DNA from: Bolinopsis microptera
Taxonomy: Eukaryota > Ctenophora > Tentaculata > Lobata > Bolinopsidae
DNA: 60,000 nt
Assembly: GCF_026151205.1 (NCBI RefSeq)
Contig: NC_087076.1
Span: 9,960,902-10,020,901, forward strand
Direction: 5' to 3'
Shown here piece after piece: positions 3,720-36,822 of this stretch. Each line of letters starts with the position of its first letter. Position 1 is the first letter of the stretch. A program made the position numbers and the translations under genes. Under the pieces are notes generated by a model. That model worked only from the letters and a program-made list of their open reading frames with translations, was not told the DNA's origin and ran no database searches.

Positions 3720-3721
3720 AA

Positions 3722-5126: not shown

Positions 5127-6204
5127 ATTCGGTCTTGGTGGAAGATTTCGATGCCACACTGTACGGTAGCCCGCTGTTCCGGGCAGTTACAGGTGATGCA
5201 CAGTATCTGGAGAAGTTAGCTAACTTTTATAGTGAGGCGATGGTGGGGTGGCCGGATATTCATCCCTCTGTTATTAACCAGATACTGTCCAAACACATCA
5301 TCATGGCTAATTCAGATCCAGGTATGTATACTTACTAATTAAAACTTTAAAATACATTTTAACTGCTGTGGAGTTTCTCTTTCGATTTCATAAGCTCTTC
5401 CAGATCCTACAGTAAACAATAAATTTGTCTCGACTAACTATTAAAATACCGAGTGGCCAAGAATAAACTCAGTGTTCTCACTTGCAAAGTACTCCCAGTG
5501 ACTAGATAGTATGTTAAATAGTGTTAACCTTAGTTTTAAGTTCCTGTTACTCTGCTAAAACTCTTTGTTCCCGTTATTCAGCCTTCATCGGAGCAGTATG
5601 CGAAAGGCTACAGAGTCTTGGAGAGGACCTGTGCATCCTGCTGATGAATCTAGTTAGCAGCATGTTCTCAACACCCTCCTGGAGGATCACAATCAACCAG
5701 TTCACCGGTAAATTGTGGCTTAAGTTTACATATATTTGGACTTAGAGACTTGGACTTCTGGTAGATCCATTGGCACTCAACAACTATGATGATATTGCTG
5801 TCCTGCATCGTCAAAGTTTTTATATGGACTTAGAGACTTCGTGACAAATTTTTAATGTCATATTTTGTTTATATTTTGCTCATACATCCTCGCTTATACA
5901 GTTATTCCTAATCTGATCAACAATGCACTGCATATAAAATTGTTTATTTAGATATTAGATAGTATCCAGATATTAGATAGTATCCAGATATTAGATAGTA
6001 TCCAGATATTAGATAGTATCCAGCTCCCATTCAGTTGTACGGGACATGGTGTACGAGCTGTACCGGCACTCAATACCCACCGCTCTCACCACAAGAGACA
6101 TGATGTTGCAGCTGTTTGAGAAGCTTGTTAAGAGCCATTTCGACGTAATGGACGAAGGAGAGCCTGAGTTGGAAGCTGACTGGGATGACTTTATTCGGTC
6201 AAAC
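5127..6204 (+). CDS. MIF4G-Tudor gene, exons 1-3 (MIF4G-like domain, first part)
   Basis: First visible cluster of a 17-exon gene ending at 36822. Exons are 5127-5321, 5582-5707 and 6035-6204, with clear AG/GT(A/G) borders and phases 1-1, 1-1 and 0. The protein is all-helical. Segments such as FIGAVCERLQSL and VRDMVYELYRHS, followed by TTRDMMLQLFEKLV, follow the helix pattern of MIF4G domains of the PAIP1/eIF4G type, which act as platforms in translation and mRNA decay. The domain finishes in the exon at 17443, beyond an 11.2-kb intron. The first exon starts mid-codon, so the true N-terminus lies upstream and is not seen. The MIF4G call rests on pattern recognition, not on a profile search; another HEAT-like helical repeat is the main alternative. 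Confidence 0.7.
5949..6022. repeat. 18-bp tandem repeat just before an acceptor
   Basis: Four head-to-tail copies of ATATTAGATAGTATCCAG end about 12 bases before the acceptor of the exon starting at 6035, so they occupy the branch-point zone of that intron. Confidence 0.9.
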
Positions 6205-6662
6205 GTGAGTATTTTTTATCTTGTTACAATATTTGGAGTATAAATAGTGACGTAATAGTGACGTAATAATGACGTGCCCCTTAAGAAGACAATTATACAA
6301 ATTAACATAAGTTAGTAATAGGGTTTATACAGGCTGAAAATATTTAATAAACATGAATAAAATTTCTCGTGTTATAAATTTATTCTGATGTCCAATTACA
6401 TTTAATTGCTGGTCTTCATTGGAAAGGCCCAATACCTATATATATAGGTATATCTAATATTATATACCAATATAAATGATGGATATCTTGCTGGTCCGCT
6501 GGTAGATGAGCAGCAAATTTCCATTCTTGATTGTGAACTTTACACTGAAAACTGTCGAGTATCTGTGTTTTCTTGCTTTATCTCTATTTCTTCCTCGTTT
6601 GTGTGAGCTCCTGCAGGTAGTTTTGACGTCATTTTTTGTGTATTTCTATTGATTTTCGCGGT

Positions 6663-7717
6663 TTAAAAACATTTTAAAGTTTTTAAAAAAAGAAAAAAAG
6701 CAGGGGAAGGTGCACCACAACTTATTAAAAACAGAGTAAATTTACCGAAAAGAATAGTAGTTCTTGTGGGAAGTCTCCTTAAAGGTACCCGCTTGTTGGC
6801 AGGCCGAATACAGGACATAATAAACCTCCTAAAACTAGCCACAGTCAAAGAGTAAATATAAATGTTACTGATAGTGTTTAGAAAGAGAAAGTCATTAGCC
6901 AGACTAAGATAGTGAGTATGGAAGAAGCTCTCTGCCTTGCTATCTGTGTTGATCATAGTTTCTCCTATACGAAAGATAGCGTATGGTAGTGTAGAGACGC
7001 AGTATACAGTTCCTGTTAAGGCGGTTGTGGTTATTCCTTGCCATTTCAGACTTTTCCTGCCTCTTTTAGCCACTGACCGGGCAAATACCAGTAAGTATAT
7101 TGTGGTTGTTACAACCACAACGTTGGGGAGGACCATGAAGAGGATAAAGGTCAGTGGTTTTAACCAGGTCCATGAGTCGGCCGAGAAACCATAATCGCAT
7201 GTATAAATCCTGTAGTCAAAAAACACATCACTCTTTTGAACGAGTAAAAATGAAACAGGAACATTTGCAGCTAAAACCCACAAAACAGCACACACAACAT
7301 GAGCTCTCCTTCCCGAAAACGACAGGCACCTGAGCGGAAACTTAAGGATGAAGACCTTACTAGTGGTCATAGCACATATCAGTTGTATACCCAGCCCAGC
7401 AGCGTAGTAAGTCTGATAGGGGGATATATTGCACTGGAGCCCACCAAACACCCACCTTCCAGCTATCTGGGACACCACCTTGGGGAAGAGAAACGTAGTG
7501 GACACCAGGAGATCTGCCACTGCAATGTGTTGGATAATCACAACTATGAGCTTGTGCAACTTGAAGGCCTTGTACTTGATGGACGCTATCAGATTGTTGT
7601 GTCTCCGATTAGGGATGAGAGAAGAGCGAATGTTAGGAAGACAGTCCAGATGTAGCGTCCACCCTTGTTGTGGTCCCCGAATAGGGTACTGTTGGAGAAG
7701 TCAGAGTTGTTCCACAT
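6663..7717 (-). pseudogene. Rhodopsin-class GPCR with a frameshift in TM1
   Basis: Intronless GPCR nested antisense in the 11.2-kb intron. From the ATG at 7717 the N-terminus carries two N-glycosylation sites (NNS, NST) and TM1 begins, but the frame hits a stop near 7590. The next frame then continues with IASIKYKAFKLHKL (loop 1) and about 290 residues covering TM2-TM7. TM2 has AVADLL. TM3 has the conserved Cys, but the DRY position reads SKVF. TM7 has NTISNIYIY in place of NPxxY. The tail is lysine and arginine-rich. A one-base loss or two-base gain between about 7585 and 7602 explains the break; it is either a real inactivation or an assembly error. The loss of DRY and NPxxY suggests a diverged, lineage-specific receptor. 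Ligand unknown. Confidence 0.75.
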
Positions 7718-7944
7718 ATCTAGTGATAAATACAATAGTTGGGTAAATTAATTAAGTTTAAACAGTGATTACAAAATACAAATTATTTTAAGCAATGGAA
7801 ATAGTCATCATTTTAGAGAGTTTATAGCTAAGAGAAGTGTTGCTTTAACAAACACAATAAGGCCAAAACGGTCGACTTAGACGCGAACTCACAAATAAAC
7901 GGTATAATTATAATTATAAACGAATTATCAGAGCATTACAGTAT

Positions 7945-10900
7945 TTGTTTGTTTGTTTGTTTGTTTGTTTTCAAGAGCTACTTGCCACTTATGTCCAGAT
8001 CATTATATAAAATTACATAATGTAGGACTTCTAGGCAGAGTGCTTGGTTGTGGGACACACTCGACTTTAAGAAAGGTGAGAAACCATAAATCTCACTAGT
8101 GAGATATCAACAGAGTGTGAACCACTGCCTGACTTACCTGTGGTTTGAGAATAGAAGAGAGTATCTTCCGTGTTGTTGAGATTCTGTGAGTCCTTTGACC
8201 ACGTTGCTGGTTACAAACTCTTGTTGTGGGAGGTGGTAGGATCATAGGCGCAATTACATGATGGATAAGAGATGAGGTTTAGCAAGTGATAGTTGTGGGG
8301 TATCTAATGGTTTAGTGAGTAATAATATAAATGAACACAAGGTAAACATAAGTAATGTCAAAACATTGTCACTCTGCGAATCTCAGGTAAAGGGGAATGC
8401 TAAGGAGGAACTTGAGTAAAGAATGGGGTGAGATGCTGTTAAAATCTGCTAGGTGAGGAGAGGAGCCAAGGTGTTGTAGCCGATCGAACTCCAGGGCTGG
8501 GCAGAAAAAGAGAACGTGGTAATTGTCTTGGCGTCCAGAGAAACAGTACGAACAATTAGGGTTGATCGTGTCGTCTATTTTGTTCAGAAAGGCTTGAAGT
8601 GGTGCACGGTTATCCAGAAAAGCAGTAATAATGCGAGAGTTACGCCTGTTAAGAGACCTGAAGAATTTAATGTGCTGTGGTAAGGAGTAGTGGGTAAGTA
8701 GGGAGAGTAGAGGGTTAGAGGAAGTGGAGTCAGACCAGTTGTTGACTCTGGAGGTAAAGCTGTTATCACGCAGTGTCGTCTTGTAATGGCTTACGGGAAG
8801 AGGTACTGTTTTAATGGAGCTGCAGGTGGTCCCTTCCTTCGCAAGAGTGTCAGCCAGATCGTTTCCTCTTATACCTGAGTGTCCTCTTATCCATGTTAGG
8901 GAAACAGAAGAGCAAAATGATGTGAGCATATCTAGTTCTTTTCTTGTTTCGATGCATAATGGGCTAGACGAGGCGTCGGCAGATAGGGCATGAACTGCAG
9001 AAAGTGAGTCTGTGAAGATGGCTACTGATGCGTTCTGACAGGGCAGGGAGCGAAGGCAAGCGCAAGCTTCTCTAATGGCCATCATTTCGGCTTGGAAAAC
9101 GGTGTTGTGGTCATCCAGTCTCCATTTGAATGTAGCTAAGGGGTCTACGTCATGCATGGAGTATACCACAAGTGCTGAGCCTGTTTTGTTATTGAGGCGG
9201 GATCCATCAGTAAAGCAGCAGAAGTGGTATCGATCTGTTACCGTCTTGTGGGAGGAGATGAGTTCGTTCAATTGTTGTTCGGAGGCCAAATTTGCGATGA
9301 ACATCGGAGTCTTAAATCTCACTGGACGGGTGATGTCCCAATGTTCGATACTAGGTGTGAGGCAATCGGAGTAGGTAGATGAATGCGGTTGGAATTTTGT
9401 TCTGGGGTTGTGGACTAGGTTGAACCTTTGGTGACCTTGCAGACGGAAAAGGGTCGAGCAGGCAGTCTTTTTAATCTCGCTTTGGAGTGGCAGGATACCT
9501 GTGGTAACTTCCATGGTTCTTCTAGACGTATAAATAGGGCAGTGGACTATTGTGCGACAAGCAAGGGACTGGACTTTGGACAGTTTTGCGTTAATGTGTG
9601 ATTTAGGGTTAATTCCCCAAACGTGACATCCGTAGGTCACAGCTGGTACTACAACTGAATTATAGATCCACCGTGCTGTGTTTGTTGTGTAACCCCAGTT
9701 TTTGCCAATAGTTCTACTAGTTGCGAGGAGGGACCAGGTAGCTTTTTTGATGATTTGGTCGACGTGTTTACTCCAGTTCAGTTTTTGATCCAGGATCAAT
9801 CCTAAATAACGTACATCTGAGGAGTATTCGATAGGATGGTCATCGATCGTTATCGGGGTATCTACGACAAACTTCCGTTTCCATGTAAAGAGTACTAATG
9901 AGGTCTTGAGGGGAGACAGTTCCAAGTCGTTGGCTTTACACCAGTTGTTGATAATGTTAACTAGAGTTGCATCCGTTCAATAAGAGTGGGGAGGTGGTCA
10001 CCTGTGACTGCTGTGACTAGGTCATCCGCAAAACCCTGTGTGAAGTCAGGTTTGTGGAGTGATGTGGTAAGAGACACGAGGAGGGAGTCGATAACGAGGT
10101 TCCAGAGAAGGGGCGAGAGTACCCCGCCTTGAGGAGTTCCTTTTAGCATGTATTTGATGAGGGAAACCCCTTTCAATGTAAAGAGGACCTTACGATTTCC
10201 CAAAAGGTTAATGATCTATTTGATAAGGTGATTGTTTATGTCTGATCTCTCAAGGGCAGTGATGATGCTTCTGAAGGAAATAGAGTCAAAGGCTGCCTTA
10301 ATGTCGACGAAACACGTTAGTGCAAAGTGGCCTTTGGAGAGTGAGCCTTCAATGAATGAGACTATCTGGTGGAGCGCTTCGTCCGTAGATCTCCCTTTTC
10401 TGAATCCTAACTGGTTGTCGCTAAGAGACTTGTCTATGTCAAGTTCATCGTTGAGGTAAAGAAGCACAGTTCTCTCTAGAAGTTTGAGGAGACTGGAGCA
10501 AAGATTAATAGTTCGCCAGTTTTGGGCGAGAAAGTGTAATTTCTTGCCAGGTTTAGGCAAAAAGATACCTGAAGATGTATTCCATGAGTGGGGGATAAAA
10601 CCCAAGCGTAGGCTGTCCTTAAAAAGATCATAGAAAAATGTATTAAGCTGAGGCCAGGAGAGGATTATCAAGTTATTAGAGATGTTATCAGGACCGGGGG
10701 CTTTCTTATTAGTGAGGAAGGAGAAGGCTTTATCGATTCTCTTCTTTGTACAGATAAGAGAAGCAAGTTCGGAAGGAGAGGGTTGATTGGAGGACTGAGA
10801 TACATTAGGACAGTATAACGTTCGAGAGGACTGGGATGAGGGGTTACTCGACATAGTGTCCTTGCTGGTGATAGCAGATAATGTTTCTAGGGGAGTTTGA

Positions 10901-11605
10901 GTGAAGGAGCCGTTGTCCTTTTTTATAGATGACAAGGAGGTTTTGCTCTGTTTCAATCGTTTGATGAGGTTAGCTGACTTTTGGCGAGAGGACGATGTAT
11001 TGGAGCAGTGTTTTTGCCAACTAGTACTTTTGGCTTTCTTTATTAGTTTGACGTACTTGTTATTGTGTTTTTTATAAGACGCTAGATCGGTCAGCGCACC
11101 TGATCTTTTCCATCTGTTCCAGCATCGCCTAACCCTGTTTCGAGCAATCCTTAGTTCTTTGGTCCACCAAGGAGATTTCAAATTCTTTGCTGTTGCTGAT
11201 GAGGAAATGAAGTAATGCGATTGTGAGAGTTTAGCGGCTTTGTGAATAATGGTGTTAATAAGTTCCGTCTTATCATTGAGTTCCTTGACTGTTGTGCATT
11301 CTGCAGAGAGGTGTTTAGAGAAGGAGGTAATCAGGTCCGCTAGGTGTTCTTGAAAGGAAGCTGCATCAGTGGTGTTTTGTTTTATAACTCGTCTTCTTGG
11401 GGGAGAGGGAGAGGGAGAAAAGGGAGTACGATGAAGGTTTATGGTAAAGTTTATAAGGGAGTGGTCGGAAAGAGACGGGCTATCTGAGATGTGCCAGGAT
11501 GAGATGAGATCACAGGCCGAAGGGTTGCCAAGGGTAACGTCCAGAGCTTCACAGCGGAGAACGTTCTGGAATGTCATTGAACCATCGTTGTAGATGGTAT
11601 TACAG
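7945..11605 (-). mobile_element. Degraded, 5'-truncated non-LTR retrotransposon (RT plus RNase H)
   Basis: Reading on the minus strand. The copy starts at about 11605 inside the AP-like endonuclease, whose end shows the SLSDHSLI motif. Reverse transcriptase follows: KKAPGPD, GFRKGRSTDEAL, FVDIKAAFDS, then GTPQGGVLSPLLWN and the catalytic FADD. The C-terminus has a type I RNase H domain with FTDGS, an E in FQAEMMA, FTDSL and the last catalytic Asp in GNDLADTLA, ending at 8369. An untranslated region of about 400 bp then ends in an (AAAC)n tail at 7945-7970. Lesions: an in-frame TAG near 10213 where a Trp codon would fit, and a frameshift near 9960. The RNase H domain points to the I/R1/LOA group of non-LTR elements; the exact clade is not resolved. 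It lies in the same intron as both GPCRs. Confidence 0.92.
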
Positions 11606-11907
11606 CATTACAGTAACACTAACGCACAATACTACAATAGTTCCACCGCATGGAGAAATGCGTTGTAGTGAAAACGTCTGACTTTTGATAGGTCTTTGGT
11701 TAAATTTATTATCTATCTGCAAGATACAGATAGTTCTAATGCCTGATTAAAATTGGAAATATGTTGTAGGCGGCGGCAGCGATTTAAACTCAAAACTACA
11801 TAATAAAATTATGTTAAACTTGCACTGCCTGTTTTAATATTGGCCACAATACACACAGAAGGCTATGAATACAACGTTTCCTGCTCTTAAGTTAAGCAGG
11901 TAACATG

Positions 11908-12275: not shown

Positions 12276-12285
12276 TGAAACTTGG

Positions 12286-14189: not shown

Positions 14190-16055
14190 TTAAACTTTAT
14201 CAAACACTGATATTGCCTCTTTACACGCTAAAGTTTCAAGTCTTATTGCCCTCCCCATGGCTGGACTATGTGCTGGACTTGCTGCACAACTTCTAGACGG
14301 TACTACAAGTCCATTTCCTGCTGATGCTACAGTAATAGCGTCCTTAGTTTTAGGGTGAAAAAAGAAGTAAACAAGCGGATTAACACTGGAACTGGAATAG
14401 TATAACGTGACAGTAGCCACCTGAGAAAACTCGTAGCTCATTGGAATATCGAACATGCTGGCAAGTGCTGAGGGTAGGTAGGCTATAAGGCCAGTAACCA
14501 CAATAGCAGTGGCAGTTAAGAAGAACCTCTTGCACTTAACTTTGTGGTGACAAATGGTACCCAGCATTATGGTGTACATACAGGGAATTATGATAAGTGG
14601 GAGGATGATTGCTAGAACCTGTACCACGGCAGATTCCACCTTGTCTTTGCTTACACAGCGGTGGTATTTTGGGTCGAAGACAATCTGAAACGGATACATA
14701 TTCCAATTGTTAAAAGGTTATAACTTGAATTAGCTCAAATTCCACATTTTGTTACCAGAACGATTTTAAAAGTATGACTAAGATAAAAGTATGATAGAAA
14801 CACTGAAAATATGACTAAGATAAAAGTATGATAGAAACACTGAATTTAAAGTAGAAGGTTACCTTCTTTTGTCCGAGCAGGAAAGTGAAAGTGTCAAAAA
14901 TCAGTAAGAAGACGGGAAGAAGCCATGTTGCCATGACAAGGACTCTGCTCCTCTCGTTAGTTATAAGGTATCTGTGATGCAAGGGGAACACTATAGCAAG
15001 GAAGCGGTCAATTGTTAGTGGTAGGAGGACAAGCATACACGCAGACCTGCAGGAGGAGGAGGAGTGTATTGGTGTCTTTTAAATACAACAACAACAACAA
15101 CAACAACAACATCGTTTAAGGAGTGTGTCAGTTTCTTTTAAATATTGCCTTGGTATTTATTATCGCTTAGTACTTCAAAAATACAATATTTAAGACAATG
15201 TAGCGGAACAACTTCAACATCTGTTATACAAAGAACACTTTTACTAACAATCATCAATTTTGCTGTGCAGAACTGTGTTTTCTGCAGTCGAACAGTTTAA
15301 CTGCAGGAATCAAAATTCTGAGTTCATTGAATGAACTCACGTGACCGAGTTCATGAATATCGCATAGGTATGACAGAAAGCATTGACACCATCCTCTGAG
15401 TTGTCCAGGAAAACAGGACTTATGACACCAAGACCTCTGAACATTCCAGCAACTGACATGAGCAGATCATTTACAGCCACGTTAAGCAGGAATATTTTCT
15501 GAGGGATATTCAATATCTAGCTGCGTACAAGTGTGAACAGACGATATGCTTGGTATATACCAGAAAAGAGATATCTCAATAATCGTTATATTGATAGTTT
15601 TGATTGTCAACAATTGATACCTGATAGTTGTTATGATGACTGTGACTTTAAAAGCCACCACTGGTAGCCTGAATAATTAAAACAATACCTGGGTTTTACA
15701 CAGAGCCACCATATTGTAGCTCAGGAAGTATATCTCTGCTGCATTTAGAAGGAAACCTATGACACTTATCCCGGTTAAGACTCCGCCCTGTTTGAGTTAA
15801 GTTTACTGTTTAACAGTTTGATAAAGAATTTAATTCACATCAAGATGAAGATTAGATATTAGGGCTGGCAAGTTTTATAAATCTAAGGGAAATATTAAAT
15901 AGGGACATACTGATTGTATTGTTGCCACGCTGATTGTATTGTTGCCACATGTGATCTAATGAAACATGATGTTTACTCACATTGATATATCTGAAGTAGC
16001 AGCTTTCCGTCCCGTTATTTCCAGAACAGGAGTGGTCTTGCACGTTGTACGGCAT
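14190..16055 (-). CDS. Rhodopsin-class GPCR, complete, five exons
   Basis: Exons on the minus strand: 15981-16055, 15689-15787, 15341-15498, 14863-15046 and 14190-14684; junction phases 0, 0, 2, 0, total 336 residues. The short extracellular N-terminus has three Cys and an NGT glycosylation site. TM1 contains ISVIGFLLNAA, TM2 LNVAVNDLLM, and the Cys before TM3 is present. TM3 ends in LTIDRFLAIVFPL, a DRF variant of DRY, and TM7 has the canonical SSVNPLVYFF. The tail is Ser/Ala-rich, without a clear palmitoylation Cys. The receptor signals through G proteins at the plasma membrane; the ligand class cannot be named. It is nested antisense in the 11.2-kb intron of the MIF4G-Tudor gene and, unlike the GPCR at 6663-7717, is intact and intron-bearing, so the two are not simple duplicates. 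Confidence 0.88.
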
Positions 16056-17442
16056 TCTACGGCACGTTCTACGGCATTCAAATCAGAGTCCTAAAACAGT
16101 AACTATTTATAGCATTGTATTGCATTCTCCAAACTGTTTCCGAAGACTCTAAGACAGTAACTATGTGTGTCTGATGTTTAAATTGGTGCAACCATAGAAA
16201 TGATATTATAGAAGTAACAGGCCCAAAAGAGTAAAACTTACTGGAGAGTTTTAACTTTTAAGACTATTCTAACAAGACGTGAAGCCAGGAAGCTTGGTGG
16301 AACCGTGTTATTACAGCACTGTTTAATGTTTATATCAATAGGCAAAACAGACCTGCTATCCACAGACAGAACATTATAACGCTTTAAGTTGCATAGAATT
16401 ATATGCATGTCATATTATGTTGTTATTAAACATAACAGTGACAGTAATCATATTTACTTTAGATAAGATTAAAATGAGGAACATATAAAAGAGTAGCGTA
16501 GGCCTAGAGTAAATTGACAATCGGACATGCGACTCAAACGTATCTCCTATACTAAAAGATGATATAGCCAAAAATGATAACAAGTTACTTACAGTTACAA
16601 GCAAAATGCTTCATTGCACGTCAAAGATCAAGGTCAAAATTTTGGGAAAGTTACAAAAAATTGCTCGGTAAATGACAAACTGATCACTCAAGCAAGTCGA
16701 ATTGTCGACATATTTTATCGACGAATTGTTTTGTGGGTTTCAACATTCTGTCTTATCTATAAATAAACAGTCAGTACAATTTGTAAAACAATGCTGAGGG
16801 TTGCCCAATTAATGGTTGGAGACGTGTGAGAATATTTTAATTTAATTTCAAGAAACAACAGGAGAGCGCCTTTGTAAGATTTCAAGCAATAGTAGGAGAG
16901 CACTTTCGTAAGATCGATAGAAATCCTTCCATTTCATGCGGATTCGACCAACAGAACAGTGAGTACAATCAGTTTGGTGTTTAATATGGCACGCCAGTCT
17001 ACCAAAGAACAAAATAACCTCCGCCTACTGTTTAAGCTCTGCGAAGACTAATTTCAATATAAATACTTTAGCTTCAGTTAATTTTCACCGCTATTGTCGC
17101 GCTGATTAAAGGCAAATTAGCTGTGAATCATATAAAAGTGGAACTATCACGTGGCTTACCTTGATTAGTTGGCAAAAGTAATTAACAATCATGAGTTGGC
17201 AGTAGAAGATGACTGTAGTGTAAGGAGAATGGCTGAGTACGGTATGCACAATTTTTTTGGAGATGAGAACGAAAGCAAGGTGGGGATCAGGGAGCTTCAG
17301 CCCAATTAATGAATCCTACCATTATTGGTACAGAGATGTATCGACGTTTTGTCGATCGATAAGACAAAAATGGCGATAAAATCCCCCCTTTTCAAAACAT
17401 TAACACCCACTCTTGTAAACTTAACACCCACTCTTGTTTCAG

Positions 17443-20036
17443 ATCGGTATATTGAGAGATTTCGTGATAGAGAAAGACAGCACAAACTCCGAGTTCCTTA
17501 TCAAGCTACGTGACATCATTGAGCCGCTCAAGGACCTGCTCCCTAAAGAGTACGGTTCTCTCAAGGGACCCGAGGGACAGAACAAACTGAGAATGCTCAT
17601 GGAAAGTTCTAGGATAGTTCCTGGTAATTACTAATTGCTATTTAAGATATTTTTAGGTGAAACAGCTGGCATGGTAAAATCATTATCGGTGTTACTATTA
17701 GGACTGAAGTGTGTAGAATGTATGATTTTTGGCAGTAAATCAATTGTTCATTAGAAGGCACCACTGCACAACAACCGATATTAAGCTACTATTCTATGAT
17801 AAGCACTGAATGAATACCACATTAAAAGTGTTTAACCTATCTCTACCTCTTGGTAAAACCCCAGAACCGTCCTCAGAAAGTGAGGGTGCCACCACCACCT
17901 ACCAGCCCACCTACAACACCACCTTGATGACCCTGCTGTCCTACCTGGATAACACGGAGCAGGTGTCTCTGAAGGAGGTGTGCAGGCTGGTGGACCAGGT
18001 TACTGGGACTGCTGATCAGGATGGTATGGGCAGTCTGGCTGGAGCTATTGTCAATAACTATTACCCTAAAGGTAATTCAAGGTGTTATTGTTAAAAATCA
18101 TTACCCTGAAAGTGGGTTTTATTCTCAACAATCACTACCCTAAAGATGGGTCATGTTTGTTCTGGAGCTATCCTCTTTAGATCCAAATTCCAATATGTTT
18201 AACTCTTTTTATTCACGAACCGCCCCTCACTAAGTTTTGTGACAATTTTCCGCTTATTTCCATTCTTCTCAGACTGGTATAAAGATGTTATTGACGAGTT
18301 GTGCGGAAGTATGCCACGAATGAAAGAAGTCCTGATAGAAAGTCTCACCGACAAAATCTTTCAATGGATTTCATCTTACCAGAATGAATCTATGAATAAA
18401 AGTAAGTACCTGTCGATCAGAAAAGTTGTTCATAAAATCGCATTTAATTTTAACCTCAGTGTCCAGTATTTGGATTGAGTTTTAAATAAATCAGAAAATC
18501 CCACACCACTAAGCCTCACTTTTCCGCAGACAAGAAGCTACCCCTGCAACCACATCTAACCCCTGCTCTCTACAAATATTCCTCGGGAACCAGCCCCCTA
18601 GAATTCTACATCCGAAGTACCCAACAAGAGCCCCTCCTAACCCTCATCAACACAACCCTGGCAGCTCTGCTAGGAGAACCAGCTCAGGGAAACTCCGGAC
18701 CCTTGTCACCTGGTACCGTAGGGGTGGTGCCCTATGTGGGGGGTCTGGTGGCATGTTACCAGGGTTACCAGGAGTGGAGGAGAGGGGAGGTGGTGTCCGT
18801 GCACGGAGATGAGGATGTCCGGGTAAAACTGGTGGATTATGGTGAGGTGATCGCCACTAACCGGGCCTGTTTGAGAGCCCTGCCCACTTTCCACGGTGTA
18901 CCGGGTAAAGCACACCAGGTGATTAGCAAGTAATTAGGGTGATAAGCAAGTTTATTTGTTAAAGTCCAGTTTAATAATTTACAATTGCCAAGTTGAAGGG
19001 TTTGTTCTTCAGTTCATTATTAATATTTTAATCTAGTTCCTACTTGAGAGATAAGTCATTGACATTTCCTATCGCTTAGTTTTGTAATTATATGTTAGCG
19101 GAACTTAATTACCATGGGAAACGTTTATTCCGAAAGCTTACTAAAATGTCACTAAAAGAGTGGTCCACTAGGTGCGATACTAAAATTTATTTTCAGGTCC
19201 GTCTCCAGAGCGTCTCCTGTCCAGAGGAGCACTCAGATCGGGTTATGCAGGATTTCGAGAACATTCTCCGAGATGAGGAGTTGAGGGTTGTTCCAGGGGA
19301 ACATCAAGATGGGTTCACTCCCGTGTGGGTTAGGTTGTCCGATGGTAAAGACTTGGCCGAGGTTCTGAGTTTGCGTGGTCATGTAGCTTGGACTGAAGAC
19401 CTCAGCGATCCTTTTGAGACTAATCCTCTTTCAGCGGAGAAACCCTTCTCCCCAGGTTACTCGTACCGATATCATACTGCATTAATTTCAATTATCTCTC
19501 GGCACATTATCTGTCAAACTTATACAAAATCCTTAGTTAATATTCGGGACGACTACGACTATCACTACTGGATATCAATACTGAATACTGAATACTAATA
19601 TCCCATTGTTAACACCTGCTATTTTCTGTCAGATCCCCTACTCACGATCCAAGATGAATCACTGCTACAAGTACACCATCTTCACCTTGTTGATACTGTA
19701 AAGGCCGTCCAGAAATATCGTGGCAGTGAGCTTCCTCCTGAAGTTCGAGACGTTCTTCTTCTTAAGGTTAGATTTTAGAAACGTTCTTCTTCTTAATGTT
19801 ACATTTTAGAAACGTTCTTCTTCTTAAGGATACATTTCAAAAAGGTTCTTCTTTTTAAGGTTACATTTTAGAAAGGTTCTTCTTCTTAAGGTTACATTTT
19901 AGAAAGGTTCTTCTTCTTAAGGTTACATTTCAAAAAGGTTCTTCTTCTTAAGGTTACATTTTAGAAATTGTTTACAAAATAATGAAAGATCCGTTCCCTC
20001 AGGCACGGAGAGTTCTCGGAGTTGAAGAATCTGATG
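17443..20036 (+). CDS. MIF4G-Tudor gene, exons 4-10 (end of MIF4G, helical middle, extended Tudor)
   Basis: Exons 17443-17623, 17865-18071, 18273-18401, 18530-18918, 19197-19455, 19633-19766 and 20003-20036, all phase-matched. The first completes the MIF4G-like region. The next two are helical and unassigned. The fourth and fifth form a textbook extended Tudor domain: an SN-like half (PLEFYIRSTQQEPLLTLINT), the Tudor barrel (GGLVACYQGYQEWRRGEVV, VKLVDYGEV, LRALPTFHGVPGKAHQ), then the second SN-like half. Such domains bind symmetrically dimethylated arginines, chiefly on Piwi proteins, in germ granules. The aromatic and DYG positions needed for the cage are present. The exon at 20003 is only 34 bases. 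The donor at 19767 is copied in a tandem array (see repeat). Tudor call strong; germ-granule role inferred. Confidence 0.85.
19750..19970. repeat. 31-bp tandem array containing copied 5' splice sites
   Basis: Seven to eight copies of a unit close to CGTTCTTCTTCTTAAGGTTA plus CATTTTAGAAA start inside the exon ending at 19766 and run into the intron. Each unit repeats the exon end (TTCTTCTTAAG) and the donor start (GTTA), with small changes such as AATGTT and AAGGATA in the second and third copies. Confidence 0.95.
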
Positions 20037-20969
20037 GTTAGTACAGTCGATCATAACTCAATTTAGCAATTATTTTGACTTACTTTGGGACTTGTTAGTG
20101 TTTGGTCTCTTGAACTGAAGTTCAGATCATGTACATTGAACCTTTCATCGAACATGCAAAACGCTTTAATTGAGTGTTTCAAAGCGAATTAATTTATCTT
20201 TTAGTCAACTGTTCCGGACATTTCATTAAAGCACAAATTTAAAAGTTTTATTTTGTCAAATGGCACCGGTTAACCAATCAGCTAACAGCAGCGAACACTT
20301 AAATTCACTCATCGCTATCAGACGTCAAAGCAATACATTTTTGTATCAATAAACTTTCAAAATGTTTACAAATACATCATTTTATTTCAAAGAAAATTCG
20401 CCGAATGACCTTACATGCCTTGACAAGTGACCGAGTGTAAACAAAATTAGGGACATCGAAACTGCGAAACACCAGTTGACCAGTAAACTGGTCATAGCAA
20501 TTACATCGGGGCCTATATGCACCTATTATAAGTGAAGCGATGCTGCAACCAAGGCATGCTAGGTTTATTCCATTGGACTAATAAGGTTACAGCCTAAAAT
20601 ATAAATATAATAACAATGTACCATAATTATAAACACAATTTATAAAACATATTTTATTAATTACATATTATATTTATTTGATATTTAGATATAGTTAATT
20701 TAAAGATAACAAAGACTTTCAATTATCAAAATATATAATATCGTTATCTATTATAACAAGAGATTATAATTACTGATTAAGGATTTGTGGCATTTGTACG
20801 GGATTGTAGAGTACAAAAAAATACATAATTCGCGAGATTAATGCCAGGAATGCGCACAGATCTTTAATCAGTAAAATGACAGTGAAATTGTGCAGAGGTG
20901 TTTAGTTGTAAAGCCGCTCGAGGTTAATCATAATTCGTTTTGATAGTAAAGTATTGTTTCGTTATTATT

Positions 20970-26522: not shown

Positions 26523-28275
26523 AAACTCCCGACGAAGATGTTCCAGATCAGAAGCTGACCTCTCCCTCCACGAGTAACAGTATCGCCCCCATCTCCTCCC
26601 CCGACTCCGCCTCTCCACCCATACCGTCCTCCCCCACCGTGGAAACTCTCCCACTTTCCGCTCAGTTCGCTACAGCCCAGGCACGTCTACACTCTACATT
26701 GTCTTGTTGTCATGACTACCGTGTCAACCACCTACCACTTATTTACCTGCAACTATTTTATGCCCTTTCCTTAACCAGACCTGTTATAGAAATAGTCGAC
26801 AAACTAATAAGATGGGTGACCCACCTCCCAACTACGTACATATCGTTTAATGAAGATACTCTCTCAGGAGCCGATATCAGAACAAATCAACTTACACTCC
26901 CGACCCCAGTCGACTGGTTCCAGTGTAGCCTCCTCCAAACCTCACTCACCCAAACCTCAGCCCCCCTCAGAGCTACAGAACATGATCATACCTCAATTCC
27001 GATCATTGGATATCCGAGAAAAGGTGGGGTTTCTTTTATCTTCATGAATCCTAGCATGATTTTCAACTCATGATTTTTCGCACTAACAGATTTTAATTAT
27101 TGTTAACAAATAACTTAACTTGTTCTTAAAAAAAAATAGTATTAAAATGTAAAACCTTTACTGCCCAGCATCATCAGGAGAGAGAACCAGAGCAGCTACC
27201 ACCACGAGTTCAGGTAGCTGATGACAGTGGCTCAGAGTTGAAGAGCATCATTGTGAAACTGGAACGGAGCATCAAACAAGTAGAGAAAAACAAAGGTCAG
27301 TTGATAATGCAACAACCAAATTGTGTTTTATTGAGCCTTAAGGGGGCATACCCCAAAACAGTGGTTTGTGCCGTCCAGACCAAATGACCTCATAGGCAGT
27401 TCAGTGACCTTCTAGCGCACCGTTTCCACACCAAAAAAATCATTTTGAGAATTCCCATTTTTGTAATCGACCATTTCCTGGTTAAGAGTTCAATTTTCGG
27501 AAAAAATTATTTTTTGGTTGAGGCGCTATAAGTTAATCGCCGTTTATTCACATCATGTCAAGGTGTGTGTAAAATCTTGATATCGTATCTAAAAAGGCTG
27601 GTGTGTTATGAATTTTTAAAGTCAAAAAGCTAAAATTGTCCTTTTCAGGCTAATTTTAACAAAAAGTCAGTCAGGGAAGATCGGATTGATTTGATGCTTG
27701 ACATCAAATTTTTCTCTAAATTCTGGCGCAGTTTTTGATGCCCTCAAAAATGGTTTTACTCATTCACCTTCTGATCTATTGGACCTCAAAGCCAAAGAAC
27801 AAATTTAGGCACATTTTTCGTTTTTAATATTTACTAATTTTTTGGTCGATTACAAAAATGGGAATTCTCAAAATGATTTTTTTTGGTGTGGAAACGGTGC
27901 GCTAGAAGGTCACTGAACTGCCTATGAGGTCATTTGGTCTGGACAGATTTGGGGTATGCCCCCTTAAAGGACGGTGGATGAGGCGGAAACGAAACTAAAT
28001 GCGCATACCAATAAACTACATGTTTTAAAATTTAATAAGGTAATACTTCCTTCATATTTGACACCTTTTTTGAATACTTGACATAAAACTAAACTACTAT
28101 TGCCTTTAGAGGATATGGAAAAGAAGGTAGACAAGTTACTACAAGAAGTAGGCGGAAGCAGAGGCAGAGGATTCCAGCGTGGGGTAAACCTTCAAGATGA
28201 TCTAGCAGAATGTGCTACCCTTATGGTTGATAGGGCGTATGGAATCTTCAAGGAGAATATCGAGAACTTTTACAA
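26523..28275 (+). CDS. MIF4G-Tudor gene, exons 11-14 (linker and first coiled-coil part)
   Basis: Exons 26523-26680, 26868-27023, 27169-27295 and 28110-28275. The exon at 26523 accepts one base from the exon ending at 20036, restoring a Glu codon. The first two encode a Ser/Pro/Thr-rich disordered linker. The next two are charged and heptad-like (ELKSIIVKLERSIKQVEKNK, DMEKKVDKLLQEV), predicting coiled coil. The intron 26681-26867 appears to use a GC donor (CAG then GCACGT), which keeps phase 0. The exon at 28110 ends in phase 2 and fits exactly to the exon at 35704, across a 7.4-kb intron that holds three minus-strand loci. Joining this cluster to the Tudor exons rests on phase and order only; a separate downstream gene is the alternative. 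Confidence 0.65.
27338..27967. mobile_element. Intact TTAA-flanked TIR element (630 bp)
   Basis: TTAA at both ends (27338-27341 and 27964-27967) with inverted termini GGGGGCATACCCCAAA and TTTGGGGTATGCCCCC. Homology between the two ends extends inward for about 130 bp, covering GACCTCATAGGCAGTTCAGT and CTAGCGCACCGTTTCCACA. There is no coding capacity. TTAA target choice points to a piggyBac- or Kolobok-driven family; the GGG start favours Kolobok. It sits in the intron 27296-28109. Confidence 0.92.
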
Positions 28276-28429
28276 GTTAGTACATTTATAGATTTTTAAC
28301 TTTAACTTTTTGTTTCTTATTAGTTTAAAATCATTTTTACTTTGATTTAGTTTATTTTACTATGAATCGTGGAATCTTTGACGGGAATTTCTTTGTGATG
28401 AATTATCGTTAGTCGGAGAAAATACAAAT

Positions 28430-29749
28430 TTAGGTGAAATGTTTTAGGTGGTCATGCAAGGTCATAGGATCAGCATGACCGAATCTGAGGTCGTTCACTC
28501 CGGCACTGATGAGGACTAGATCAGATTGTTCTATTGAGGCTTGGTGTTGTGCTAAGTCTCTCAGATGGAAGAGATCTTCTCTGAACGCAATGATCGGCTC
28601 TTTGAGGAGAGAGCAGTCGAATGTACGGTTCTTGGAGTCAGACAGTATAAGAACTCGCCGAAGTCGTTTCGATGTTGGGTGGTCCTTGTGTGGTGATGAT
28701 AGGCCTGACGACAAGGAGCCTCGTTGGGGACGTCTGCTCTTCTTGACTGTACCGGGGTCCTCTAGCAGTCTGAAGGTAATGCTCAATCGGGGCCCCTCAA
28801 ATTTCTCTTCAGGGATTCCTGGAACGGAGTGATCCCATTCATCCTGGCTTTGTCTGGACATGGTATAGAGAGAACCATGAGTAGCTGTGAATGTCTCCTT
28901 CTTGTATTCTCCAGGGATCTTCCTCCGAAATACCACTTCTCTGGGACAGCCGAGTGACAGAGTGATGATGTTACTATCCCTACTGATACTGGGTTCGTTG
29001 TCTGAGTGGGGTGGAATGCAAGAGCGGGGAGAATCGTATGAGGTGACCATGGCTGAGTTGAAATTAAGATCTGGATATTCGGTCTTAAGAACATTAGCAA
29101 TTTCACTCAAATATGACGATTTTGAAATGTCTCTAGCATGATGGGAACCGCCGGAATAGCGATATGAGAACTGACCATAGTAGGCAACACGTCTATTAGG
29201 AAAAGTACGGTCATAAGTTACGTCATCGTTCAGCGCAGAACTCGAAAATGTGTCAAAATGCGCACCATCAAGTGTCTCAAACGGTAGTGTACCTGAGTTT
29301 GTCGAGTTACCGTGTAATCCTGGGCTGTGTAGTCGTTGGCTGGGCGGTGGGGGGGTAGGCGTCTGCTGAGGGCTGCAGGGTGGTTGAATAGCTGTGGTAG
29401 TTGTTGAACTGAGAGTTTGGCCAATGTCTTTTTGAAGTCCTTTCAACTGCTTACTAGCGTCCTCCGCGTGCCTCGTAATGATTTCAGTTAAATTATCAAC
29501 GCAATTAGATAACAAGTTAAATAAAGAATCTTGTTCTTCGCCAATAAATTGTTGGAAATGTTCTCTTAGGGCCACACGAGCTTCGTCAATGTTCTTTTTG
29601 CTACGGGTTTTACGTGGCAGATTCTTGATAAATTCAGGATTCAAAATGAGGTTGCTCTCCCTCATTATCTGGTCTTCATCTAGCTTGTCGACTAGCTCTA
29701 GGCTGGTCAGCGCTGAGAATCCCCCTAACCGTTTTGGTTCAGGTTCCAT
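28430..29749 (-). CDS. AlkB-like dioxygenase fused to a truncated SGNH domain
   Basis: A 439-residue single-exon ORF from the ATG at 29749. The N-terminal ~120 residues are charged and helical; a Pro-rich linker follows. Residues ~165-330 are a 2-oxoglutarate/Fe(II) dioxygenase of the AlkB family, with iron ligands H248 and D250 (PPHSDNE) and H307 (DHSVPG) and the signature RLSITFR at 321-327. After a Ser/Arg/Lys linker, an SGNH-hydrolase fold begins (RVLILSDSKNR at ~365-375 and ISAGVNDL at ~414-421) but stops at residue 439, before its last catalytic block. AlkB enzymes repair or demethylate alkylated nucleic acids. Together with the lack of introns, this architecture suggests a retroelement ORF or a gene derived from one. 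The stop may be a truncation. It lies antisense in the 7.4-kb intron of the MIF4G-Tudor gene. Confidence 0.82.
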   Translation of the reverse strand: MEPEPKRLGGFSALTSLELVDKLDEDQIMRESNLILNPEFIKNLPRKTRSKKNIDEARVALREHFQQFIGEEQDSLFNLLSNCVDNLTEIITRHAEDASKQLKGLQKDIGQTLSSTTTTAIQPPCSPQQTPTPPPPSQRLHSPGLHGNSTNSGTLPFETLDGAHFDTFSSSALNDDVTYDRTFPNRRVAYYGQFSYRYSGGSHHARDISKSSYLSEIANVLKTEYPDLNFNSAMVTSYDSPRSCIPPHSDNEPSISRDSNIITLSLGCPREVVFRRKIPGEYKKETFTATHGSLYTMSRQSQDEWDHSVPGIPEEKFEGPRLSITFRLLEDPGTVKKSRRPQRGSLSSGLSSPHKDHPTSKRLRRVLILSDSKNRTFDCSLLKEPIIAFREDLFHLRDLAQHQASIEQSDLVLISAGVNDLRFGHADPMTLHDHLKHFT

Positions 29750-30073
29750 TATCAAAAACTTACTTTACTGGAAAGTTTGTGGCAGCTTTATGTAATTGGA
29801 CGGTTCTGATTCCCGTACCGCCTAGCCTCAGTCTGTCAGTCGTAGTTAGTTACCACAGTCCACGTCACAAGCACATGCAAGGTGAAGATTAAAAAATTTA
29901 ATGAACACAATGAATTTATTGAATATTTCTCTACCAAAGATGAATATTTCTCTAATCACTTTCAAAAGTACGTCTCAGCAAACAATAAACATTAAACATG
30001 CAACATCTTTATTCGTAAAAAGGTTAATATTTGACAAGAATTCTACAATGATGCCGAACTCTCCATATGAGTT

Positions 30074-33588: not shown

Positions 33589-33628
33589 TGTAGAGAGAAT
33601 TAACAGTTACTGTTAGACATATTATATT

Positions 33629-34428
33629 GGGGGGGATGCAACGTCAATTAATGTCAGTATTCCATAAAAACCCCAAACTGACATTGACATTAATTGACAT
33701 TAATTGACATTAATTGACATTAATTGACATTAATTGACATTAATTTGTCTTGAAATTTGAGATTATCATTATTCGATAAATATTCAAGATATTCACGTCT
33801 ATGTAAGTTAGACCGGTTCAAAAAAACAAAATGTCCTTGAATAATTATGAGTATGTTCTTATCTGTTGATCCTTAGGTTCAAAGACCACCACAAAAATTT
33901 CAGCTTCCAACTCTTCCATCTTCGGTCCCCACCGGCCACGCCCATATTTTATTGGTTTCTTATACAGGTAAAATATCTAGAATCGGCTTTTTTAGTATGA
34001 AGGAGTAATGTTAGCTGTTTCAGATTCGTTATTCAAATATAAATGTCATGAAGGCATTTCGTTTAATGTGGGTTTTAAGTTCTGATGATGTTGAGAACCA
34101 CGCCCTTGGATGGCCACGCCCATTTAAGAAAATTAAATTTCGGAAAACCGTATTATTTTAGTTTTATTGTTTAATGATCTGAATTTTTTCACATTTCACA
34201 TTTCCATATGTGATAGTAGTGAATAAATTGATGATATAAACGTTCTAAAGTGCTAAAAATATGGTAGAACTACATAATCTCTGGTCGAAAAATATCGTGT
34301 CAATTAATGTCAGTATTCCAAAATTTTGCAAAACTGACATTGACATTAATTGACATTAATTGACATTAATTGACATTAATTGACATTAATTGACATTAAT
34401 TGACATTAATTGACGTTGCATCCCCCCC
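33629..34428. mobile_element. 800-bp G-run TIR element with 8-bp target duplication
   Basis: The element begins GGGGGGGATGCAACGTCAAT and ends with the inverted copy. ATTATATT is duplicated at 33621-33628 and 34429-34436. Both ends carry subterminal arrays of the 10-mer TTGACATTAA (about five to seven units each). The interior has no coding potential. It lies between the TPR gene and its putative first exon. Confidence 0.93.
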
Positions 34429-34514
34429 ATTATATTGTCGTTCTTTCCCCAAAAATGTACGAAAATTCAAAATTATGATGAAACCTTCCACAACATAATA
34501 ATCTCCCAACTCAC

Positions 34515-34778
34515 CTGGGTTTTTTGCGAATTAAGGGGTTGTTCCTCCTCCTCTACCAGCCCTCGTTTAAGATGTTCCAATAACGTCTTGTAGTATTTGT
34601 GCTGAGAGATTGGGATTGCTGTAAGCATGTAGTTTACCTTGCTCAGTACTTGCTCAGTAGTTGTAGGGTCTGATTGTATCCCAAATAACAACGGGACAGC
34701 CCTCCTGTTTGACAGGGGTCTGGGTTCCTGTACTACTACTGCTGCTTCTAATATAGGGGCAACAGTGTCCAGCGGCAT
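34515..34778 (-). CDS. Probable first coding exon of the TPR-like gene
   Basis: From the ATG at 34778, 88 codons end in CAG before a good donor (GTGAGT) in phase 0. The helical content (QVLSKVNYMLTAIPISQHKY, LLEHLKRGLVEEEEQ) is compatible with the downstream solenoid. In-phase acceptors exist at the start of the 32455-33588 exon (CTTCAG) and at 32138. The exon could instead belong to an independent short gene. Confidence 0.5.
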
Positions 34779-35703
34779 GATAAAAGACGGTTGAAGAGGC
34801 TTGATTCTTGAATCAAAAACTCGAAAGCTGAAAAGAGAGAAGCTGACCAAGCTACAAACACCAATGTTTCCTAAACACGATAGGATTCATTATTATTTGT
34901 ACTCGTTATCCCTGTGTGCGCGCATGCTTTAATTAATATACTTTGATTACTCAAGTTTACTCAGTCTCTCTCTCTGCTGCATCTTGATATTCCGCCAGAT
35001 TGTGCTAATAATCTGCCAGCATAGTATGATCCTTGCTGTAAATATGAATGTTAGTGTGCCCGGTGCCGCAAGAGCAACTAAAGTACGAACTTCACATCAA
35101 TCAATAGCCCGGTTCATTGCCTACTTGGATTCGTCAATAAAGCTTCTGCACTGACATGCAAACATATTATTTCCATTCATTTTTCACGTTATAACTTTAT
35201 AATGAGATGGATTTGCTGGTAAATCTTGACTAGAGAACGTTTTAAATGCATAAAATTGCATACTAACAAAACATATCGAACAACTTGATTGATGCTTTAA
35301 CAAAAGTAATAAAGCATCTGATTTTGTTTCTTAAAAATTCAGGACTTGGGTTGAATACAAAACATCTTAATAATGAAGCTAGTATGGGTATTAGACAAGG
35401 TAGACACTGGGTTGTGGAGGGGACTATTTACTTGTTCTACTACATTTATTGAACGTTCTTGCTAAAAAGTAAACACAGTTCCTTAAGGAACACTGCTAGG
35501 TTCCGGACAGGTTCTACTCTAACGTTACGGCACTTTCGGATACAAAATTAATTCTCAATGATCCATGCCTTGAGAAAAGTTAGTTTTTTGTACTGATAGG
35601 ATTCATATCAGTTTGTTCACAAGATATGTGGATGTGCACTAGGTCATAGGTGCAGTGTGCAGTTACCAGGTTAAGATTTTTTCTAATAATCAATTTATCT
35701 CAG

Positions 35704-36822
35704 AGAGGAAGTTGTCAAGAAACTTCAACACCATCTAGACGAAATACTAGACAAGCAAAACCAGATGAACTTTGTAGTTACCGATAAAATGAAGAAATCT
35801 GTCCAGAAAAATGTGACCCATATCGTCAAGGTAATTTACCCTCGGCAGTTAATAAAATGTTGAACGATTTCACGTATGATTTTTGGGTTTAATCTAATAA
35901 CATTAGTCTATATAATATGTACATATATAATCCAACTATATGGTTTGATCTACGTTATAAGTTGCACAATATATAAAATAATTTCACTCACCCCGGAGAT
36001 TTTATCTAAAACTCGCCTGCTCCAGGCTGTGAACGATGAGGTCCAAAGCTCAGTGGCAGAACGGCTCGCCTCTGACGAGACCCTGAAGAACATGATCCAA
36101 GTAACGTTGCTGCCCAGCTTCCAGCAGCAGCTGGATTTGGTGTATCGTGGTTTTACGGATACTTTGCAGAGGGAACTCCAACACAACTCCCTGGCAGCTA
36201 GCCAGGTACGAGATATAGATATTATCTGAATCAGTTATCTTACTTTTTATCTTTACAGATACCTGAATATTAGGTTTTATACTTTGGAATATGTTAAATT
36301 TAACTTGTCTCAAAAGATCCAGCTGTACTGTATTTCTCATCGTTTCCAATACTAGTTGTTAAATTTGCTGCGTACAGCGCGGTGACAGTGAATAATGAAT
36401 ATGAAATTCTACGTCGGTGTCTCCGCAAAACTGCCTCAATCAATGACTGCTTCCGAAAGTCACATCAAAGTTTTAGTAACCCCTGATTGAATGTCAGAAA
36501 TATAGTGCAAACTGCAAGTACCCCCTAATAACCGGAATTTTACCAAAAGATTCTTTCATCACCCTACTCCGCGTGGGTAGGACGGCTGGGGAAGTTTTCA
36601 CTACAGCAAGCTAAACTCACCCCTCCGTACCAGGCACGTGGTTCCTCCGAAGCTGAGATCTCAGCGCATCTAGACCGGTTGGAGGGCATGCTGGGGAGCT
36701 ATGAACGAGCTCAAAACGCCGCTAACGCCACCATCTGCACCAAGATAGAGAGCCAACTGACGAGGTCAGTGACGGAGCTGTACCAGCGCCACGGGGTCAG
36801 CCCGCCAGATAGACACAGATAG
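35704..36822 (+). CDS. MIF4G-Tudor gene, exons 15-17 (C-terminal helical region, stop)
   Basis: Exons 35704-35830, 36026-36205 and 36634-36822; the stop TAG is at 36820-36822. The first begins by completing the Lys codon left open at 28275, and the other junctions are phase 0. Sequence such as VVKKLQHHLDEILDKQNQ, VTLLPSFQQQLDLVYRGFTD and ISAHLDRLEGMLGSYERA is helical and amphipathic. The LLPSFQQ...F.DTLQREL pattern recalls the C-terminal region of the decapping scaffold EDC4/Ge-1, a weak resemblance that needs a profile comparison. If correct, the whole protein would combine a translation platform (MIF4G), a methyl-arginine reader (Tudor) and an mRNA-decay-type oligomerisation region. Confidence 0.65.

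Follow-up and report, generated by a model that had tools for sequence, protein, structure and literature searches.

Exon chain at the locus

A chain of 17 exons on the plus strand of a Bolinopsis microptera contig (NC_087076.1) encodes a helical-looking region, an extended Tudor domain, a Ser/Pro-rich linker and a coiled region. It lies in a window of 60,000 nucleotides, the whole stretch of DNA that was analysed; position 1 is the first letter of this stretch, and negative numbers denote DNA upstream of the window. The chain was rebuilt exactly as the preliminary description had given it (17 exons, matching phases, 2925 coding bases): it runs from 5129 to a TAG at 36820-36822 (2925 nt, 975 codons), the phases agree at all 16 junctions, and 15 introns have GT-AG borders and the remaining one has GC-AG (GC donor after 26680). 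The features are as follows.

Exon 1, 5127..5321, + strand: opens the inserted block; helical region by eye; acceptor in phase 1
Exon 2, 5582..5707, + strand: helical region by eye
Exon 3, 6035..6204, + strand: helical region by eye
Exon 4, 17443..17623, + strand: helical region by eye; exons 1-4 were the "MIF4G" of the preliminary description, without MIF4G similarity
Exon 5, 17865..18071, + strand: without credible Pfam family
Exon 6, 18273..18401, + strand: without credible Pfam family
Exon 7, 18530..18918, + strand: extended Tudor core; PF00567
Tudor pocket codons, 18757..18846, + strand: Tyr 18757, Arg 18778, Leu 18829, Tyr 18838, Glu 18844
Exon 8, 19197..19455, + strand: 3' of the Tudor core; by eye, the second half of the extended Tudor
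Exon 9, 19633..19766, + strand: 3' end and donor recur in a 31-bp tandem array (19752-19967)
Exon 10, 20003..20036, + strand: 34 nt; closes the block; read-through stop 20039-20041
Exon 11, 26523..26680, + strand: Ser/Pro-rich linker; phase-1 acceptor; GC donor
Exon 12, 26868..27023, + strand: Ser/Pro-rich linker; acceptor ambiguous, the alternative 26910 fitting equally well as 26868
Exon 13, 27169..27295, + strand: EDC4-like coiled region begins
Exon 14, 28110..28275, + strand: EDC4-like coil
Exon 15, 35704..35830, + strand: EDC4-like coil
Exon 16, 36026..36205, + strand: EDC4-like coil; LLPSF opposite human VLPAF in the alignment
Exon 17, 36634..36822, + strand: EDC4-like coil ends; stop TAG; good-looking internal donor after 36764

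The GC content of the exons is 0.50 vs 0.39 in the introns, and the best codon score falls on the frame of the model in 15 of the 17 exons (the misses being exon 12 and the 34-nt exon 10). Taken singly, 16 of the 17 exons are open in one frame or more; exon 17 is open in none because its frame carries the stop. The exon clusters are set apart by introns of 11.2, 6.5 and 7.4 kb, which contain minus-strand genes and mobile elements; intron-borne at the locus are two minus-strand astacin-like frames (recognized by eye), one GPCR frame, one weak second GPCR frame and one LINE. An Rfam scan of the window gave no match, and in the species' own genome a search with exons 1-6 as the query matched this locus only.

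Upstream exons and the 27-exon gene model

The chain was not confirmed as a complete gene: exon 1 opens at a phase-1 acceptor, and the stretch from the preceding stop to this acceptor lacks an in-frame ATG. Because the chain begins at an acceptor, the 20 kb upstream of the window were examined, and ten more in-phase exons were identified there, which supply 570 codons and one base before joining exon 1; the upstream linker exon (-5297..-4965) ends in phase 1, as the acceptor of exon 1 requires. The product of all 27 exons has 1545 aa and only the final stop. Exons 1-10 form a block of 1824 nt (608 codons, divisible by 3) that is in phase 1 on both sides and could therefore be an optional cassette, the frame being kept with the block included as well as skipped (937 aa when skipped); the phase-1 acceptor of exon 11 is compatible both with exon 10 and with the upstream linker exon. 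The donor of exon 10 is ordinary and usable (score 8.2, 12th of 26 donors, near the median), and the weak sites of the model lie at donor -9518 (poor, -8.4) and at three acceptors with scores of about 0. The locus may be read as one EDC4/Ge-1-like gene of 27 exons (-10526 to 36822, about 47 kb) that carries the Tudor block in its linker, a reading whose chances we regard as evenly balanced.

Similarity of both gene ends to EDC4/Ge-1

The canonical order of EDC4 (Ge-1, Hedls; VARICOSE in plants) is WD40, linker, coil, according to PMC8984151 and PMC9987799. The gene model shares with it a WD40-like N-terminal half, a Ser/Pro-rich linker and a coiled C-terminal region in the same order on one strand, but differs in the 608-codon helical and Tudor block within the linker, in the weakness of its WD40 match and in the C-terminal ARM/HEAT-like domain, which was not found here. 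The putative EDC4 identity of both ends is supported by alignment statistics, the human EDC4 sequences in all comparisons being non-database copies, in two differing versions.

The WD40-like part aligned to the WD40 of human EDC4 with a score of 94 (z 5.9; none of 400 shuffles as high), the controls GNB1 and WDR5 reaching z 0.27 and -0.18, and the whole upstream part aligned to the N-terminal part of human EDC4 with z 7.45 (none of 300 shuffles as high); the linker alone stayed at chance level against the human linker (z 0.16). When Pfam was searched with six stretches containing the last WD40 blades, Ge1_WD40 came out on top in four of them (E 0.094, 0.13, 0.15, 0.24), each time at one and the same end of its profile and below the cut-off (best 12.1 bits vs 29.5), and the remaining two, including the whole 570-residue upstream product, gave no family at E<=1. 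With the WD40-like part, neither PDB nor NCBIfam returned a match. A genome-wide search with Ge1_WD40 gave nothing at E<=1e-3, this locus itself included, and therefore leaves room for a second EDC4 in the genome.

The coiled C-terminus of the preliminary description is present, and it can now be given a likely affinity: following a Ser-rich linker, as in EDC4/Ge-1, it aligned to the coil of human EDC4 with z 8.5 (none of 400 shuffles and 2 of 1000 14-residue block shuffles as high; tropomyosin as a control, z 0.58). The floor of such coil scores is high (the reversed target scored 100 vs 126), and a separate comparison was weaker (reversed 78 vs 81; 6 of 2000 7-residue block shuffles as high); hhalign aligned only 17 columns of the coil, with 1 of 60 block shuffles scoring higher. 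Searches by tblastn with non-database copies of the human and Arabidopsis C-terminal domains did not find the ARM/HEAT-like domain, the best downstream match having E 1.7 and the best in the window (28488-28556, E 0.071) lying inside an intron. The donor after 36764 pointed to further exons 3' of exon 17, but the coding scan was empty before a methyltransferase gene at 40523; some of the scan's training material came from the exons of the model itself, and it still recovers only 20 of the 27, so a missed 3' exon is possible.

The extended Tudor domain and its pocket

A Tudor domain with extended-type flanks was confirmed (PF00567, E 1.2e-10, 41.9 bits vs a cut-off of 23, in Pfam with exons 7-10 as the query), and it was likewise above the cut-off in a scan of the species' own genome. 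In the joined product, Arg 420 (WRR) and Asp 438 (VDYG) would agree with the conserved structural Arg and Asp that PMC7255803 names for extended Tudors, if those are the residues meant. The pocket residues are Tyr, Arg, Leu, Tyr and Glu, whereas the methylarginine consensus has four aromatics and an Asn; it is missed at three of the five positions, and the pocket thus departs from the pattern of sDMA readers. The earlier proposal that the protein reads dimethyl-arginine marks is weakened, because two of its four cage aromatics, and also the Asn, have given way to other residues.

At two positions the pocket matches that of Krimper eTud1, an extended Tudor that binds unmethylated Ago3, or unmethylated arginine. 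In both, Leu occupies the third cage position and Glu stands in place of the Asn, with a spacing of 7, 17, 3 and 2 (the matching of positions is our own), but positions 1, 2 and 4 are Asp, Thr and Phe in Krimper eTud1 and Tyr, Arg and Tyr here. Krimper has two Tudor domains, compared to one extended Tudor here, and to our knowledge no WD40. Among solved structures the best Tudor matches were those of RNF17/TDRD4 and TDRD1 (2eqk, E 0.012; 4b9w, E 0.17), both multi-Tudor proteins, a weak similarity given that an unrelated aminotransferase ranked between them (E 0.12); the aligned TDRD1 domains keep the aromatic pattern that is lost in this Tudor. The predicted fold of the Tudor exon alone was uninformative (mean pLDDT 38). 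Searches of contig collections confirmed none of 50 pattern matches for the Tudor region (genome contigs) and none of five for the helical region (viral contigs), and they say little because the collections are prokaryotic or viral.

The helical region encoded by exons 1-4

Exons 1-4, spread over 12 kb, encode a region that looks helical and HEAT-like by eye, and it was here that a MIF4G platform had been proposed. At the sequence level this identity was rejected after Pfam, PDB, hhalign and pairwise shuffle comparisons with positive controls. Pfam gave no MIF4G at E<=10 (the HMMER filters hide most matches above 0.1), and a PDB search by phmmer returned nothing relevant. Against MIF4G, hhalign gave a score of 16.9, which at least 8 of 150 shuffles exceeded; pairwise comparisons with six MIF4G domains gave z values of -0.8 to 2.1, five true MIF4G pairs reaching 9 to 25, and the alignment to PAIP1 was at shuffle level (300 of 500 as high). 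MIF4G proteins (eIF4G, PAIP1, MIF4GD) perhaps have a helical region of similar size, a likeness without sequence evidence; true members find one another, whereas this region has neither profile nor pairwise similarity to them. The preliminary description had itself named a profile search without MIF4G similarity for the first four exons as speaking against its proposal, and at the sequence level this is what was found.

One gene or two

The main rival to a fusion is a nested gene on the same strand: EDC4 would splice from -4965 directly to 26523, and exons 1-10 would be a separate Tudor gene within this 31-kb EDC4-like intron, with its own start and an end at 20041. We regard this as a serious possibility, if on the doubtful side. 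The EDC4 frame survives skipping of the block, exon 10 reads through to a stop at 20039-20041, and an AATAAA at 20348 could end the transcript, although this signal is common here (57 in 60 kb, about 1 per kb). Exon 1 contains an in-frame Met (residue 38), and a non-coding first exon could therefore start a separate gene; other genes (the astacin-like and GPCR frames and the LINE) do occur in introns of the locus, and an EDC4 with a Tudor domain was not found in the literature searched. However, a scan for coding start exons of suitable phase brought out no clear one: the highest-ranking candidates fall within a LINE ORF1-like frame or are antisense to the astacin-like frames, and the remaining ones are no better than those in control introns (the scan is blind to a non-coding first exon). 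One weak candidate (17229-17279, donor 5.2) might provide a transcript start leading into exon 4. Furthermore, both ends of the block match the EDC4 phase, which is expected in 1 of 9 cases if they are independent, although the match at the 3' end was partly chosen because exon 10 was needed for the phase.

The two ends might also belong to two unrelated same-strand genes, one WD40-like and one coiled-coil, neither of them EDC4. The Ge1_WD40 profile, below its cut-off or unreported in Pfam and empty in the genome scan, and the missing C-terminal EDC4 domain would agree with this, but both ends favour EDC4 over controls of the same fold, in the correct order and on one strand, and we consider such a pair improbable. 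Still less credible, and in our view very improbable, is the original model of a free-standing MIF4G-Tudor-coil protein that ties translation factors to dimethyl-arginine marks. Its 17-exon chain and Tudor domain are real and its N-terminal part is helical and HEAT-like by eye, but MIF4G similarity is lacking, the chain starts at an acceptor with in-phase exons upstream, the coil resembles that of EDC4, and the Tudor pocket differs from the sDMA consensus. The connection to mRNA decay contained in this model may hold through EDC4 (its coil and the upstream WD40 half), not by the MIF4G route.

Proposed Tudor domain in EDC4 and its possible role

Human EDC4 ties DCP1, DCP2 and XRN1 together, according to PMC8984151. 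In the one-gene reading, for which we infer that the block is included in one transcript with the EDC4-like ends, the WD40 half and the coiled half would serve as a decapping scaffold, as they do in other animals (DCP1, DCP2, XRN1, oligomerisation), with the Tudor domain adding a docking pocket for an arginine-containing partner, the docking being probably unmethylated or methylation-insensitive. An RG-rich RNP protein, e.g., a PIWI protein or an LSM14-like factor, might in this way be brought to the decapping scaffold. We propose tentatively, at somewhat less than even chances, that EDC4 acquired in its linker an extended Tudor with a pocket like that of Krimper eTud1, which would wire P-body decapping directly to RG-motif proteins (e.g., PIWIs) and might be switched by alternative inclusion of the block.

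P-bodies and germ granules have factors in common, but we are aware of no report of one polypeptide acting as a scaffold in both, and none was found among the papers listed in the literature searches. Should the block be spliced in, the metazoan decapping scaffold and a Tudor docking domain of the piRNA-granule type would be combined in a single protein, and it could be tested directly which arginine-containing partner EDC4 recruits. If the Tudor gene is nested, the locus would neatly illustrate how a Tudor gene can lie within a decapping gene, and it would caution against merged gene models.

Exon structure of the locus

The 17-exon chain on the forward strand (5127..36822), proposed in the preliminary description to encode a MIF4G domain, an extended Tudor domain and a coiled C-terminus, was rebuilt from the sequence as claimed, with 16 of 16 junctions phase-matched and 2925 nt in total (975 codons including the stop). 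One intron has a GC donor (after 26680) and the remaining ones are GT-AG. GC content is 0.50 in the exons vs 0.39 in their introns, and codon scoring by a model built from other frames of the window favoured the chain's frame in 15 of the 17 exons (the misses being the 34-nt exon 10 and exon 12). The phase matches, the GC contrast and this frame preference put the coding chain well above what chance would give; the placement of all exon clusters on one mRNA is putative. At 19752-19967 the 3' end of exon 9 recurs, together with its donor site, in a 31-bp tandem array (7 copies, 91% matches), so that several equivalent donors lie in succession.

Since exon 1 opens at a phase-1 acceptor, with no in-frame start between the preceding stop and that acceptor (an in-frame Met lies inside the exon, at residue 38), 20 kb upstream were examined. 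There, on the same strand, ten exons (-10526 to -4965, negative coordinates being upstream of the window) follow a gene that we take to be GUF1/LepA-like (main frame -12863 to -11064), and their in-phase join from an ATG gives 570 codons plus one base:

-10526..-10465, forward strand, upstream exon 1
-10203..-10101, forward strand, upstream exon 2
-9849..-9518, forward strand, upstream exon 3
-9332..-9196, forward strand, upstream exon 4
-8660..-8514, forward strand, upstream exon 5
-7530..-7441, forward strand, upstream exon 6
-6829..-6657, forward strand, upstream exon 7
-6537..-6310, forward strand, upstream exon 8
-5518..-5413, forward strand, upstream exon 9
-5297..-4965, forward strand, upstream exon 10

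By splice-site scoring the donor at -9518 is poor, and three of the 26 acceptors (-9332, -6829 and 28110) score near 0 in a leave-one-out comparison.

Similarity to EDC4

The flanking parts were compared with human EDC4, for which two versions of the sequence were used that differ where the coil begins. With its 439 residues, the WD40-like part gave z 5.9 (0/400 shuffles as high; controls GNB1 z 0.27, WDR5 z -0.18); for the upstream part as a whole z was 7.45 (0/300). For the coil (exons 13-17) z was 8.5 with none of 400 shuffles as high, or 2 of 1000 when 14-residue blocks were shuffled, and 0.58 against tropomyosin as control. The block between them (exons 1-10) showed no similarity to EDC4 (z 0.05, 39/100 shuffles as high). 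Canonical EDC4 runs from WD40 through a Ser-rich linker to a helical C-terminus (PMC8984151, PMC9987799); the parts stand in the same order here, the difference being the block within the linker.

Against this likeness, Ge1_WD40 was the top Pfam family in four of six stretches containing the last WD40 blades (E 0.094 to 0.24, all under the cut-off), neither a 161-residue crude join nor the full 570-residue product matched a Pfam family at E<=1, and the upstream WD40-like product found no match in the PDB. The linker alone was on par with shuffles (z 0.16), and the EDC4 C-terminal helical domain was searched for and not found. The composition floor of the coil scores is high (reversed target 100 vs 126 in one comparison and 78 vs 81 in another, the latter with block shuffles as high in 6/2000), and hhalign aligned only 17 columns (1/60 block shuffles higher). 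A genome-wide Ge1_WD40 scan missed the present locus too and is therefore no argument against another EDC4 in the genome.

The Tudor domain and its pocket

The Tudor domain was borne out by a PF00567 match (E 1.2e-10, Pfam, exons 7-10), and the locus is among 23 matches of a genome-wide Tudor scan. Two other matches (C15:115835 and C105:21647) lie in open frames of equal length (763 residues) on different contigs and are perhaps duplicate or unplaced copies. Among solved structures even the closest Tudors match weakly (RNF17/TDRD4 2eqk, E 0.012; TDRD1 4b9w, E 0.17), and an aminotransferase, which is unrelated, ranks between these two (E 0.12).

For the MIF4G domain, sequence similarity was lacking by each of the four approaches. 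Pfam returned no MIF4G at E<=10 (HMMER filters drop most matches above 0.1), and phmmer against the PDB with the candidate region gave nothing relevant. The hhalign score against six MIF4G sequences was 16.9, a value exceeded by no fewer than 8 of 150 shuffles; pairwise z was -0.8 to 2.1 against the six, vs 9.0 to 24.8 for five true MIF4G pairs. With exons 1-6 as query, the locus itself was the only match in its own genome (E<=1).

Pocket positions in the translated chain were assigned by aligning it with TDRD1 and by using the residue numbering of Krimper (PMC8249470), the matching being our own: Tyr412, Arg419, Leu436, Tyr439 and Glu441, vs four aromatics and Asn in symmetric dimethyl-arginine readers. 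Krimper eTud1, a domain that binds Ago3 in its unmethylated form, has Asp373, Thr380, Leu397, Phe400 and Glu402 there; as matched by us, the spacing (7, 17, 3, 2) is the same, and Leu and Glu are common to both. In SIMR-1 two of the four aromatics of the cage are missing, and domains of this kind may favour substrates without methylation (PMC7255803). The departure from the consensus, the resemblance to Krimper eTud1 and the SIMR-1 precedent weaken the proposed reading of dimethyl-arginine, yet do not disprove it.

Block spliced in, or nested gene

The block (1824 nt, 608 codons) has phase 1 at either end, so the EDC4 frame survives both its inclusion (1545 aa) and its skipping (937 aa). We give its inclusion in the EDC4-like transcript about an even chance: the phases fit at both ends and the exon 10 donor is ordinary (score 8.2, 12th of 26), but a direct join of exon 9 to exon 11 would break the phase, and the choice of exon 10 was therefore guided in part by phase. 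Somewhat doubtful, though a serious alternative, is a separate Tudor gene nested in an EDC4-like intron. Read-through of exon 10 meets a stop at 20039-20041, an AATAAA lies at 20348 (though the motif occurs about once per kb), the Met within exon 1 is in frame, and introns of the locus already house other genes; against it and for inclusion, no coding start exon was outstanding in a scan blind to a non-coding first exon. An ATG exon-like stretch at 17229-17279, in phase with exon 4, offers the Tudor part another, though weak, candidate start.

If the block is included, the linker Tudor domain would provide a peptide-docking site on a decapping scaffold. The pocket suggests an unmethylated or methylation-insensitive arginine as ligand, the partner might be a PIWI or LSM14-like protein, and any germline role is putative. 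According to PMC8984151, human EDC4 oligomerises, contacts DCP1 by its WD40 region and uses its C-terminus to bind DCP2 and XRN1; PMC9987799 differs in part, the C-terminal part being sufficient for DCP1a and the N-terminal part required for XRN1. Among the matches listed, no paper on a MIF4G and Tudor or an EDC4 and Tudor protein appeared by title or abstract start, which is weak evidence for novelty.

Other genes and repeats

-3830 to -2688 and 1828-2958, reverse strand, two similar frames in the EDC4-like intron, astacin-type metalloprotease by eye
3713-4042, simple repeat of about 330 bases (Gly-Ser, Gly-Gln or Asp-Pro runs depending on frame)
6663-7697, reverse strand, GPCR frame in the 11-kb intron (7tm_1, E 1.9e-17)
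8372-11607, LINE in the 11-kb intron (reverse transcriptase and RNase H frames)
14193-14717, reverse strand, weaker GPCR frame in the 11-kb intron (E 0.0062, under the cut-off)
28433-29764, reverse strand, open frame with AlkB-like 2OG-Fe(II) oxygenase domain (E 4.4e-19)
40523-41413 and 42939-43820, tandem pair of methyltransferase-like genes without introns

The AlkB-like frame perhaps belongs to a mobile element. The first of the tandem pair, alone scanned, has a generic methyltransferase domain (Pfam), and both resemble glycine N-methyltransferase.
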